Assembly (NCBI GenBank): GCA_017551705.1 | Contig: JAFZLA010000064.1 | Coordinates: forward strand, 1 to 64,000 | Direction: 5' to 3' | DNA from: Treponema sp. | Lineage (GTDB): Bacteria; Spirochaetota; Spirochaetia; Treponematales; Treponemataceae | DNA: 64,000 bases | Part shown: positions 6,876 to 11,389 of the stretch, in pieces | Layout of the letters: each line of letters opens with the position of its first letter | Position numbering within the stretch: position 1 is the first letter of the stretch | Made by a program: the position numbers and the translations under genes | Notes under the pieces: model-generated | Seen by the model: the letters and a program-made list of their open reading frames with translations, nothing else | Database searches by the model: none | Told to the model about the DNA's origin: nothing

Positions 6876-9089
6876 TTACATCAGCTCGCTGACGATTTGG
6901 CAGGGATTCTTTCTGTTGTAAAGGTAGGCGTACATGGCGGCGGCGCTTACGACACGGCGGCCGTAGTCGCGGGTTTCGGCAAACGGAAGGGTTTCCAAAA
7001 ACAAGTCGCTCCACAAGTCGCCGCTCTCGTTCAATTCCAGCTTGCTGTTCCGTATCCAGCGGCGGACGACTGTGATTCCCGCGTTGTAGGCAAAGAGCGC
7101 CAACACACCCGAATTGTCCAAACGCCTTTTCATTTGCGAATAATAATATGTTCCAAAGCGGATGTTGGTGGCGGGATCCAGCAAATTGTAGTCGCCAGCC
7201 TTTAGCCGTTTGGCGCAGTCCGCCGCGGTCGCCTCCATCAATTGGGTCAAGCCAATCGCTCCCGCGTGGCTTTGGATGGCCGGCTCAAAAAAACTTTCGG
7301 TGCGGATTAGCGCGAACATAAGGTGGTCGTCAACTTCAAATTCTTTGGCGGAGGCGCGGATTTCTTGCAAAAAGTTTTGCGGGTACAAAAGCTCAAAGGC
7401 CTTGCGGCTTATTTGAATGCCGTCTATGTTGGCCGAGCGCGAAATCATTCTTAGGCTTTTTGAATAATAGTCGTTTTGGCCGTTCGCCATGTTGCGCAAA
7501 AATTCGCTCAGCCGCTCAACGGTGGCCAAGTCAATCATTTTTTTGTCGATGTCAAAAAAGAATTTCCAATCGTCGTAAATCAACTCGCCAAGCCCAAAGT
7601 CGGCGTAGCCCAAAAGCAATTTGCGGGCGGATTGGGGCTCCAGCGGCGGAGCGTTTTTGGCCTTGCCTTCGTTTGCATTTTGCGGCGCGCTCTTGGTCTT
7701 GCCGTCAGTCCGGGCGCCATTCCCGGTCTTGCCGTCATTCGCGGCAAAAAACATTTTGTCTATGTCGGCGGTTTGAAAGCCAAGCGCCTTGGCCGCCAAA
7801 AGCTTGTAGTAAACAAAGGTTCCCGGGTCGGTTTGCGCGGCCAAGCGATAATAGCCGTCAATCTTTTTTTTGTCCGCTCCTTCAGTCTGGCTTTCCATAA
7901 CCCGCGCCGTCAAATAGGCGTACTTAGAAAGAGTGGCCTGGCTCGCGCGGCCGTCTATGGCCGACAAAACTTTTTCAAACAAGTTCCACTTGCCGCCGCT
8001 AAAAAGCAGCACAGAAAGCGAGTCAAAAAAATCGTCAAAGTAATCCTTTTGGCCAAAGGAGGCCGCGTATTTTTGCAAGCCCGCAACCGCTTCCTCTGTC
8101 GAAATTTTTAGGCAAGACTGCAAGTAATACCAAAGCGCCTGGTCTCGCTCGTTTTCGTCAGCGGCCAAAACAAGAGCGGCCTCAAACTGCTTTAGCGCGC
8201 GGCGGCGGTAGTTGTCGTTTTTGTTGTAAAGCAAGCCCGAATAAATCATCGCGTAATAATTGATTCTCTTGTCGTTCCAGTCGCCGCCAGCCAACTCTTC
8301 AAAATATTTTGCGTTCTTAATGTCCTCGTTGTTTCCGTAAACGCAAGCGCGGCCCATGTCGGCCACCAATTGCCAAGTCAACGGAATCTTTTTATGTTCG
8401 ATTGTCAGCGCGCGGATTTGCTCATACATTTCGTAGGCCGCGTTGTAGTTTCCGCGATAGATGGCGATTCTAAATTGAATGGCAAACTCGGAATTGACGG
8501 CAAAGTCAGAAAATTGCGGCCCCGATCCGTCCGCGCCTGCGATGGCTTCTTCCAATTCGTCGCGCGCGTTTTGCTTGTAAAACTCGTAGTGAACGTCGCT
8601 AACCCGCCGCAATGTGAACCAATCAAAAACGCTTTTGTCAAAGCGCGAGTCTTTCTTTTTGTCCAAGGCTTGCAGCCTAAGCGCGGCCAAGTTGTTGTCG
8701 CAAACAGCCAAATCTATGTCGACGGTGGCCTCTATCGCGCGCGCGTATTCTTTGTCGGCCAAAAATTCTCGGCATACAAAAAGCTTTGCGTCGTCGTCGT
8801 TGTATTCCCTCAAATAATCGGAGCACCTTTTTATTCTTTCTTGAATGTCTCCCATCAAGCAAAGCTGCTTCATGGATTTGCGCGCGGCCCAGTAACTGGC
8901 TTTTTTTGCGGAACGAAAAAAATACTTTTGCGCGGCTTCGGAATTGTTTTCCCTAAGGGCCAGCATTCCGTTAAAATAATTTGCGTCCGCTCCGTAAAAT
9001 TTATTTAAAGAAACTTTTTCCTGCGAGCAGGCCGTGAACAAAGAGAAAAAAGCCAGAGTGAGAATTGTTTTTTTTGCGGAAGAAAACAT
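6876..9089 (-). CDS. Lytic transglycosylase (SLT domain) lipoprotein
   Basis: 737-residue membrane-anchored murein transglycosylase, cleaving the MurNAc-GlcNAc bond in the periplasm. The signal peptide ends in a lipobox FTAC near residue 21. Residues about 30-560 are alpha-helical superhelical repeats as in Slt70. The C-terminal SLT domain shows LMFALIRTESFFEPAIQSHA with the catalytic Glu, GAIGLTQLMEATA, and LALFAYNAG. A low-complexity insert around residue 455 (NDGKTGNGARTDGKTKSAPQ and on) interrupts the helical part. The ATG at 9089 overlaps the upstream LysM stop as TGATG; a GTG one codon earlier is the alternative. Co-transcribed with the LysM protein, which also targets peptidoglycan. 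Confidence 0.88.
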   Translation of the reverse strand: MFSSAKKTILTLAFFSLFTACSQEKVSLNKFYGADANYFNGMLALRENNSEAAQKYFFRSAKKASYWAARKSMKQLCLMGDIQERIKRCSDYLREYNDDDAKLFVCREFLADKEYARAIEATVDIDLAVCDNNLAALRLQALDKKKDSRFDKSVFDWFTLRRVSDVHYEFYKQNARDELEEAIAGADGSGPQFSDFAVNSEFAIQFRIAIYRGNYNAAYEMYEQIRALTIEHKKIPLTWQLVADMGRACVYGNNEDIKNAKYFEELAGGDWNDKRINYYAMIYSGLLYNKNDNYRRRALKQFEAALVLAADENERDQALWYYLQSCLKISTEEAVAGLQKYAASFGQKDYFDDFFDSLSVLLFSGGKWNLFEKVLSAIDGRASQATLSKYAYLTARVMESQTEGADKKKIDGYYRLAAQTDPGTFVYYKLLAAKALGFQTADIDKMFFAANDGKTGNGARTDGKTKSAPQNANEGKAKNAPPLEPQSARKLLLGYADFGLGELIYDDWKFFFDIDKKMIDLATVERLSEFLRNMANGQNDYYSKSLRMISRSANIDGIQISRKAFELLYPQNFLQEIRASAKEFEVDDHLMFALIRTESFFEPAIQSHAGAIGLTQLMEATAADCAKRLKAGDYNLLDPATNIRFGTYYYSQMKRRLDNSGVLALFAYNAGITVVRRWIRNSKLELNESGDLWSDLFLETLPFAETRDYGRRVVSAAAMYAYLYNRKNPCQIVSELM

Positions 9090-10306
9090 CACTCTTCCGG
9101 AATCTTGATGTACGTTCCGGCTACGATATGGTTGGGATTTTTAATGCCGTTGTATCTAGCGATCTTTTTGTATCGCCAAGGATTCTTGTAGTAAGCGGCC
9201 GAGATGTCCCAAAGAGTGTCGCCCCACTTGATTTTGTAAGTGATGACTTTAGGCTCTTTCTTCGCTTCGGGTTTGGGAAGGTCGGGAACAACAATCTCCG
9301 CTTCTTCGATTACAACAACCTCGTCTTCTTTTGCGGCAGGCGCCGGCGGAGGCAATGGTTCCTCCTTTTGAGCGGGAGGCGGAAGAGGAGCGGCTTGCTC
9401 TTGAACCTGCTCATTTTGGGAACTCTTTGAAGTGAGCAAATTGAATCTTGACGGAATGACAAACAAGAGGAGCAAAACAGCCAACACGCAGATGATGGCG
9501 CAAATCAAGCACACCAAAACAGGCAGGCGGGTTTTCTTTCGTTCGCTGTCAATGTCGTTTTCGTCATAAAGGCTGTCAAAGCTTGTGTCCGAAGAAGAGG
9601 CCTGGTTTTGGTCGTTTTCAAAAACGGGCTCGTTGTCAAAAGTCGGATCCTTAAATTCTTCGTCGTCAAATTTAAGCGGCTCGTCATCGGACTGCGCGGC
9701 GGGCTCTTCAAAATCCGGCATGTTAAAGTCGGGCATGTCGATGTTCTCGTCAACGGGAACTTCTGTCTGGTCAAAGTCAGGAAGGGCAAAATCGTCCGAT
9801 TCAGTCTCAGCCTTTTTTGCGGGAACGTCGTCGACAACAGTCTCCGCCTCGGGAGCGGGGCCTTCGTCAAATGAAGGCATGTCAAAGTTAATGTCGTCAA
9901 GCTCGGACTTGACCTTGATTTCTTCGGCGGCTCCAAGCAAGCCCTTTCCAGTTCCGGGATTTTTGTCGCTGGCCAAAAGGACTTCGCCTAGGTTCGCGCT
10001 GAACGAAGCCTCTTCGTTTGTAGATTCGTCTTTGAGTTGGGCCTCGACGTTGTCGTTCTTGTCAAGCGAAAGCGACAAGTTGATGTCGGGCTGGCCGTTA
10101 GGCTGGCGTTCCAATTTATTGATTTTGAGCGTGTCGATTAAAATCGCGTCTTCCATTGAGCCGCTTTCGCTGGCGTACAAAGAAACCTGAACGGTGGTCT
10201 GGTTGTCCTTTACAGTGGTGAGATTGATTTTCTTTTTGTCAGGCTGTCCTTGTTCCATGATGGGGAAAAAGGCGCCGTCCGCCAATTTAATGCCTATTTT
10301 TTTCAT
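9089..10306 (-). CDS. LysM protein with Hsp70-substrate-domain-like N-terminus
   Basis: 405-residue single-pass membrane protein. Residues 1-120 resemble the Hsp70 substrate-binding beta domain: KKINLTTVKDNQTTVQVSLY followed by SLSLDKNDNVEAQLKDESTN, compared with the DnaK pattern DNQ..V.I.VYQGE...I...DANGI..V.AKD. Residues 125-255 are a very acidic linker with repeated DMPDF-type units. A transmembrane helix (LPVLVCLICAIICVLAVLLL) lies near 262-284 with preceding RKKTR, giving a cytoplasmic N-terminus. A Pro/Glu-rich stretch and a LysM domain (YKIKWGDTLWDISAAYY, then NPNHIVAGTYIKIP) follow in the periplasm. Leaderless-type promoter. Heads a unit with the transglycosylase. The Hsp70 likeness is by eye only. 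Confidence 0.8.
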   Translation of the reverse strand: MKKIGIKLADGAFFPIMEQGQPDKKKINLTTVKDNQTTVQVSLYASESGSMEDAILIDTLKINKLERQPNGQPDINLSLSLDKNDNVEAQLKDESTNEEASFSANLGEVLLASDKNPGTGKGLLGAAEEIKVKSELDDINFDMPSFDEGPAPEAETVVDDVPAKKAETESDDFALPDFDQTEVPVDENIDMPDFNMPDFEEPAAQSDDEPLKFDDEEFKDPTFDNEPVFENDQNQASSSDTSFDSLYDENDIDSERKKTRLPVLVCLICAIICVLAVLLLLFVIPSRFNLLTSKSSQNEQVQEQAAPLPPPAQKEEPLPPPAPAAKEDEVVVIEEAEIVVPDLPKPEAKKEPKVITYKIKWGDTLWDISAAYYKNPWRYKKIARYNGIKNPNHIVAGTYIKIPEE

Positions 10307-10313
10307 AATCTCT

Positions 10314-10343
10314 ATTATACCACACTCTGTGTGGTTTTGGCAA
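10314..10343 (-). promoter_or_regulatory. Promoter of LysM-SLT unit with internal palindrome
   Basis: Minus strand: TTGCCA (10343-10338), 18 bp, TATAAT (10319-10314), 7 nt to the ATG at 10306, no ribosome site. The spacer holds a perfect inverted repeat ACCACAC-TCT-GTGTGGT (10319-10335, plus strand), a candidate repressor site. Confidence 0.7.
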
Positions 10344-10357
10344 GGAAAATGTCCGCT

Positions 10358-11383
10358 CTAAAAGTTGTGGATGTATCTAAACGCGATTCGTTTAAAATAC
10401 CATTCCCCGCCGGAAGACCGCATTTCCAAGACGTTTTGGTCGCGTCCGTTATAGGTTCCTTTCTTTGAGTCAAAGCCGCGCCTGCGTTCAAACGTAAAAA
10501 GAACCAACAGCATGTCCTTTTTTGTAAACGAGACCATAAAAAGCGGCGACAAGGTCATGTTGCAAAAATTGCCGTCAAAGGCCCTGTATTTTGAGTCAAA
10601 TTGGCTGTCGGAAAAGTAGCCGGTAAATTCGGCCTGAAAGCCTACCATGCTAAGTTTTAGCGGCATTTGGTAGCCCAAAATTACGTTGGCGTAATACCAA
10701 GGTCCGTTCACTTTGGCGTAATCGCTAGCCCAGCACCAAGGATGGCCTTTTTCTTGGCCGGTCAAGCCGCTTAGGCGAAAGTCATAGCTGGCCATAAAGA
10801 CGATATGGTGCCAGTCTCCGGGCCAAACCGCCTCCGCGTCAAATTGCAAGGTTCCGCCAATGCTAAATTCGCCGTACCAATTGGCAAAGGGCGTCAAATT
10901 GTCGTATTCTCCGCTTGACGCGTTGTATGTGGCCAAGCCCTGCGCTCCAAGGAAGGGCCAGCCGGTTCCTGCGGTAAGACCCGCGTTGACCACAAAAAAA
11001 GCCACGGGCGTCCAGCTGGCAAAAATTCTTGGCTTAAAAGTCGCCGGAGAAATTTGGCATTCGGCGCCCAACTTTAGTTTGTTTCCTTTTGTAAGAAAGT
11101 TTGAGCCGGGGAGCGGAATCGTGTAATCATACGAAGCGGTGACGCCAAACTGCAAGCTGTCATAGGGCCCAGTTATCGGAGCGAACCTCTCTCCGTTTCC
11201 CGCTACCATGTCGCTGTAGGGATAGTAGGCAAAGTCCGTAAAAATGCTGAATCTGTGCGGAGACTTGCGTTCGTCCAAACGCTCCTCCAAAATCCGCTCA
11301 TCCTCATCCATAGTTTCTTGGGAAAAAACAAAGGCGGCCGTAAAAATCAGCGCCATAGCCGCCCAAACAACTCTCTTTTTCAT
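10358..11383 (-). CDS. Putative outer-membrane beta-barrel protein
   Basis: 341-residue exported protein of unknown specific function. The signal peptide ends around FVFSQ. The mature part alternates polar and aromatic residues, is rich in Tyr, Phe, Trp and Gly, and ends IRYIHNF-like (FKRIAFRYIHNF) with a terminal Phe, all typical of an outer-membrane barrel. The start at 11383 is chosen over an upstream CTG/GTG frame extension because the signal peptide begins there and TATAAT lies 6 nt upstream. It stands alone, divergent from the PrsW-like gene. Confidence 0.65.
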   Translation of the reverse strand: MKKRVVWAAMALIFTAAFVFSQETMDEDERILEERLDERKSPHRFSIFTDFAYYPYSDMVAGNGERFAPITGPYDSLQFGVTASYDYTIPLPGSNFLTKGNKLKLGAECQISPATFKPRIFASWTPVAFFVVNAGLTAGTGWPFLGAQGLATYNASSGEYDNLTPFANWYGEFSIGGTLQFDAEAVWPGDWHHIVFMASYDFRLSGLTGQEKGHPWCWASDYAKVNGPWYYANVILGYQMPLKLSMVGFQAEFTGYFSDSQFDSKYRAFDGNFCNMTLSPLFMVSFTKKDMLLVLFTFERRRGFDSKKGTYNGRDQNVLEMRSSGGEWYFKRIAFRYIHNF

Positions 11384-11389
11384 GCCGAC

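Follow-up and report, generated by a model that had tools for sequence, protein, structure and literature searches.

A membrane-anchored Hsp70-type peptide-binding domain encoded beside a lytic transglycosylase in spirochaetes

The window analysed here, a stretch of 64,000 nucleotides from a Treponema sp. genome, carries on its minus strand a 405-aa open reading frame that starts with an ATG at 10306 and ends with a stop codon at 9089-9091 (Table 1). This stop codon overlaps possible start codons (GTGATG) of the neighbouring gene (6876-9092), whose product matches the lytic transglycosylase model NF047373 at 579 bits (cut-off 234), and the linkage to such an enzyme that the initial annotation had proposed is borne out by both the match and the overlap. 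On the other side, the gene at 10358-11389 (about 343 aa, with a signal-peptide-like start) had no match in Pfam or NCBIfam; its product is perhaps an outer-membrane protein. At 10306-10343, a -10-like TATAAT ends 7 nt ahead of the ATG, so that the transcript may be nearly leaderless.

Table 1. Features of the SBD-LysM locus (window positions) and UppP-like genes at related loci
Feature	Coordinates	Strand	Basis
Whole gene: SBD-beta, acidic linker, transmembrane helix, LysM; 405 aa	9089..10306	-	ORF, Pfam, AlphaFold2
Hsp70 substrate-binding beta subdomain, residues 1-105 (= DnaK 396-502)	9992..10306	-	Pfam HSP70; AlphaFold2 pLDDT >=94; Z 15.9
Short helix, residues 106-115, at the point where DnaK continues into the lid	9962..9991	-	AlphaFold2
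Acidic linker, predicted cytoplasmic, residues 116-259, low-confidence, probably disordered	9530..9961	-	AlphaFold2, composition
Linker motif copy 1, MPSFD, residues 143-147	9866..9880	-	Motif enriched in family
Linker motif copy 2, LPDFD, residues 175-179	9770..9784	-	Motif enriched in family
Linker motif copies 3 and 4, MPDFN MPDFE, residues 191-200	9707..9736	-	Motif enriched in family
Single transmembrane helix, residues 260-286, basic residues on N side	9449..9529	-	AlphaFold2, charge counts
Pro/Glu-rich stalk, predicted periplasmic, residues 287-353	9248..9448	-	Sequence; low pLDDT
LysM domain, residues 354-405	9092..9247	-	Pfam LysM 3.2e-11; AlphaFold2
Lytic transglycosylase, BB0259/MltS family: lipobox-like LFTAC, helical region, SLT domain	6876..9092	-	NF047373 579 bits; SLT 7e-28
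Promoter-like site TTGCCA-18-TATAAT with TG, 7 nt before ATG	10314..10343	-	11/12 matches, consensus match only
UppP-like genes	L150:2269-3063, L048:4764-5624, L154:4601-5386, L155:4197-4997		Named from sequence by eye

The protein carries a true Hsp70 substrate-binding beta subdomain (SBD-beta). Residues 6-114 match positions 396-506 of the Pfam HSP70 profile (PF00012), i.e. its SBD-beta region, with an E-value of 2e-7 (30.1 bits, cut-off 20.6), and NCBIfam DnaK models match the same N-terminal stretch at about 1e-7. A phmmer search against PDB sequences likewise led to Hsp70 SBDs (best 3.4e-7), which a profile of 39 family sequences retrieved at 3e-15. In the AlphaFold2 model of the 405-aa protein, built from a 40-sequence alignment, eight strands occupy residues 3-105, with pLDDT of 94-98 across about residues 1-110; beyond a short helix at 106-115, the linker is modelled with low confidence and leads to another helix (260-286) and, at 354-403, to a LysM fold. 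The top structural matches of the model (Foldseek, VIA-align) are Hsp70/DnaK SBDs, with Z 15.9 and rmsd of 1.8-1.9 A over 105-109 residues. The initial annotation had likened the N-terminus, given as residues 1-120, to the peptide-binding beta domain of DnaK without the ATPase domain; the Pfam match and the fold confirm the likeness, and the model of this region shows the Hsp70 SBD-beta sandwich, not an unrelated fold. Its full length does not hold, however, as the homology stops near residue 105-115 and no lid follows.

The protein is not a full member of the Hsp70 family, given that both the ATPase domain and the lid are missing: it starts at the first SBD strand, with no match to PF00012 positions 1-395, and in the model the alpha-helical lid is replaced by helix 106-115 and the low-confidence linker. 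The family thus shares with Hsp70/DnaK (PF00012, TIGR02350) a homologous eight-stranded sandwich (residues 1-105 versus DnaK 396-502) and, in most members, the groove positions, but differs in the lack of nucleotide-binding domain, interdomain linker and alpha lid, in its membrane anchor, in a K or R at the equivalent of E402 (39/39 aligned members) and in the M404 arch position, which is mostly A. Chance or low-complexity resemblance to Hsp70 is ruled out by the profile E-values, structure and conservation, whereas a broken dnaK fragment is ruled out by a separate, full-length, DnaK-sized 655-aa frame in the same genome (G000:C96) and by the integrity of the small gene across many genomes.

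A search of 296 genomes of Spirochaetota recovered relatives throughout Spirochaetia and also in some other classes, and the SBD protein or a divergent form of it is present in most Spirochaetia families. With Hsp70-sized frames disregarded, and leaving aside one contig-edge match as well as the Borrelia-like genomes, 79 genomes are profile-positive; among the named records are Treponema parvum, T. putidum, T. vincentii, T. socranskii and T. bryantii. Spirochaetota account for all of the best 80 of 216 loci, although the search pattern was itself derived from spirochaete sequences, so that absence elsewhere is not implied. A 1.1-Mb genome displays the gene order MCP, SBD gene, transglycosylase, MnmG, adenosine deaminase, PSP1-like, bactofilin and M23 (products named by eye), which matches that of T. 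pallidum and equates the family member there with TP0042/TPASS_0042. Gene order and architecture (L151:5512-6441, then the BB0259-family enzyme) both make it the same gene, albeit with a weaker match to the family profile (1.6e-18) and an SBD that had gone unremarked. TPASS_0042 has been entered only as 'Peptidoglycan binding (LysM domain)' (PMC5951579), and beyond this list entry we found nothing in the literature on BB0260, TP0042 or SBD-LysM fusions.

Downstream of the SBD, the family is built on a common plan. The linkers are strongly acidic (30% D+E, 6% K+R), and comparison of the 12 residues before the helix with those after it revealed more K/R before the helix in 50 of 69 non-redundant members and the reverse in 7/69, with no signal-peptide-like N-terminus among the 69. 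The charge bias and the missing signal peptide support the predicted topology, in which the N-terminus would lie inside the cell and the C-terminal LysM outside. The LysM domain itself (PF01476, residues 357-403) is matched with an E-value of 3e-11 (43.4 bits against a gathering score of 20.9). Hence, the acidic linker, the single membrane helix with a predicted cytoplasmic N-terminus and the LysM domain, all read from the window by the initial annotation, stand up to the family-wide composition, to the modelled helix and K/R counts, and to the Pfam match and predicted fold, respectively. Nevertheless, the GDxLW signature of LysM is missing in 13 of the 69 members, most of which still adjoin the enzyme, and LysM is dispensable in several lineages. 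The persistence of this adjacency without LysM indicates that the SBD and the helix, rather than LysM, are the constant part beside the enzyme.

Of the 110 loci in which the SBD gene is complete and more than 1.2 kb is visible past its end, 96 have the transglycosylase as the immediate downstream gene on that strand; these loci are not independent of one another. The co-encoded partner is BB0259/MltS (NF047373), an enzyme itself devoid of SBD or LysM. The flagellar hook depends for its passage through the cell wall on BB0259, which interacts with FlgJ (PMC8517470); the enzyme is anchored in the inner membrane and accounts for shed anhydro-muropeptides, hence the name MltS (PMC12279116). The arrangement varies among lineages: in f9, the SBD protein is present and the transglycosylase not detectable; in f17 and f30, the SBD gene is located away from the transglycosylase; and f5, where the SBD gene overlaps the enzyme gene, and f16 have two paralogues, the LysM-bearing one elsewhere and the other adjoining the enzyme. 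In f13, a 163-aa ORF upstream of the transglycosylase (L154:7576-8067) combines a transmembrane helix with a faint SBD-like pattern; it has no Pfam or NCBIfam match and is perhaps an extreme remnant. Beside the SBD gene, a membrane TPR protein in divergent orientation is also conserved in several lineages (L150:6516-7898, L048:222-1625, L154:8154-9497), the L048 copy of which has a C-terminus with an Mrr-like nuclease fold (Pfam Mrr_cat, 5.8e-8).

A divergent form was found in the Borrelia-like family f6, where, in 21 genomes, we read an ORF, presumably BB0260, overlapping the BB0259-like gene. Its N-terminus resembles the SBD and is followed, as in the rest of the family, by an acidic linker and a transmembrane helix, but no LysM is present. 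Pfam and NCBIfam scans of the ORF gave no match, and the Borrelia profile alone found no Hsp70s among PDB sequences; the connection to Hsp70 is made by profile-profile comparison with the family (97.5% probability, E-value 7.5e-12), by the family profile, which reaches the ORF directly at 2.8e-9, and by the fold. AlphaFold2 run on Borrelia sequences alone predicted eight strands again (mean pLDDT 83.7), with Hsp70 SBDs as the best structural matches (Z 12.9, rmsd 2.1 over 103). The groove residues, by contrast, are changed, with E at the equivalent of Q433 and G/K at those of S427/T428, so that the ability to bind peptides may have been lost in Borrelia. One Borrelia-like genome (L150:9792-11252) encodes, about 3.5 kb away from its SBD-TM gene, a 486-aa Hsp70, possibly BB0264, with an ATPase domain and SBD-beta but no lid; FlhA, FlhF-like and FlhG-like genes are nearby in the same flagellar region.

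Outside Borrelia, the groove is well preserved. Groove-lining positions, as defined by the DnaK-peptide structure, have a mean entropy of 1.12 compared with 2.15 elsewhere (p 2e-4), although against other hydrophobic positions the difference reaches only p 0.06. All 39 aligned sequences share Q36, which corresponds to DnaK Q433, and a single residue accounts for 87-93% at the positions equivalent to I401 and F426. The linkers, in turn, are enriched in a short motif, hP(D/E/S/A)(F/Y), which occurs 82 times in the 69 non-redundant linkers as opposed to 6.9 times in shuffles (about 12 times chance) and lies right behind the SBD in 25/69 members (1.9 in shuffles). Its D and F are invariant in a 13-sequence order-level alignment, and its copies are multiplied in Treponema.

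These patterns bring up the possibility that the protein is its own ligand, whereby hPDF from the linker would dock in the groove of the same or a neighbouring SBD, closing or clustering the protein, until a competing peptide or membrane tension released it and altered the periplasmic hold on the enzyme. We regard this switch as fairly unlikely, even though, in addition to motif enrichment, position, invariance and multiplication, the central-pocket position is V/I in 41/44 motif-bearing versus 12/20 motif-free members (p 0.002, uncorrected for ancestry and confounded by it). DnaK usually disfavours acidic peptides, motif-free lineages keep the groove residues all the same, and the AlphaFold2 monomer did not place the motif in the groove with confidence (linker pLDDT about 41-56). 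A functional analogy is nevertheless provided by HscA, whose SBD is dedicated to the specific proline-containing motif LPPVK of IscU (PMC6506825), with the difference that HscA keeps its ATPase and lid and that the ligand of the present family is putative. The broader adaptor reading developed below could accommodate such a latch as a special case, and our confidences in the two are not mutually exclusive.

FlhA is encoded in all 79 profile-positive genomes, whereas in the aflagellate family f12, FlhA, the enzyme and the SBD family are all absent (12/12 genomes), yielding a Fisher's p of 0.003 that is uncorrected for relatedness and reflects essentially one lineage. Within the sample, the SBD family is thus confined to flagellates but not found in every one of them, since no SBD gene was detected in the flagellate lineages f10, f15, G294 and f24. 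The association with flagella, resting on few independent losses, is supportive but not proof. Alternatively, the protein could be a general factor of wall growth or division, sharing an operon with MltS for the reason that both serve wall turnover. Behind the transglycosylase, Borrelia, f5, f13 and f43 carry a gene recognized by eye from its sequence as UppP-like (undecaprenyl-diphosphatase), and its recurrence in such distant lineages suggests an old wall operon; the bulk release of anhydro-muropeptides is likewise due to MltS (PMC12279116). Yet both the SBD gene and the enzyme are missing from the f12 genomes, whose owners presumably still grow walls, although this is a single lineage, and we consider such a role, not specific to flagella, doubtful.

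Rather doubtful, too, is that the SBD-beta is a structural relic, a mere scaffold or oligomerization module in a passive wall anchor beside the transglycosylase: the lid and ATPase are gone, and key groove residues have disappeared in Borrelia, where the fold, gene position and transmembrane helix persist, but in the other members the positions of the groove rank with the best conserved in the domain.

The reading that we favour, although tentatively and at somewhat less than even odds, is that of a bitopic adaptor which binds peptides constitutively, is not a chaperone, and places the co-encoded BB0259/MltS for wall opening. Being lid-less and ATPase-less, the cytoplasmic SBD-beta would offer a constitutive peptide pocket without a chaperone cycle, and its groove might recognize an extended hydrophobic/proline motif, either in the protein's own linker (hPDF) or in a cytoplasmic partner located where the flagellum is based or the wall grows. 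The helix would carry the link across the inner membrane and LysM, where present, would grip glycan strands; together, they would place and limit the inner-membrane transglycosylase, such that openings arise at the points required for periplasmic flagella or for growth of the wall. The adaptor reading is supported by the computed fold, phylum-wide conservation, synteny that persists without LysM, co-occurrence with FlhA, groove conservation and the HscA and BB0259 precedents, and weakened by the flagellates lacking the SBD, the altered Borrelia groove, the enzyme-less f9, the displaced genes of f5, f17 and f30 and the modest contrast with other hydrophobic positions. Fold and homology, architecture, predicted topology, synteny, groove conservation and motif enrichment are computed results, whereas peptide binding by the groove, the identity of the peptide, physical contact with the enzyme and the localization of the protein are inferred. 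The coupling of client binding to wall turnover, which the initial annotation had put forward, gains support as an inference from the conserved groove, the synteny with BB0259/MltS and the published work on wall opening and muropeptides (PMC8517470, PMC12279116). A still more specific version, which strikes us as quite improbable, is an ATP-free, membrane-anchored motif reader whose groove would bind both hPDF in its own or a sister linker and a partner from the flagellum or from wall growth, and which would thus act as a latch through the membrane, holding the transglycosylase in position for periplasmic flagella.

As far as the searched literature shows, a membrane-held Hsp70 peptide-binding domain without ATPase or lid, encoded beside a cell-wall enzyme, represents an undescribed family. 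Its recognition assigns a fold to ORFs of T. pallidum and Borrelia that so far were only LysM-labelled or family-less. Collectively, these proteins provide a testable candidate for how spirochaetes open the wall at the right place for their periplasmic flagella, the drivers of motility and shape.
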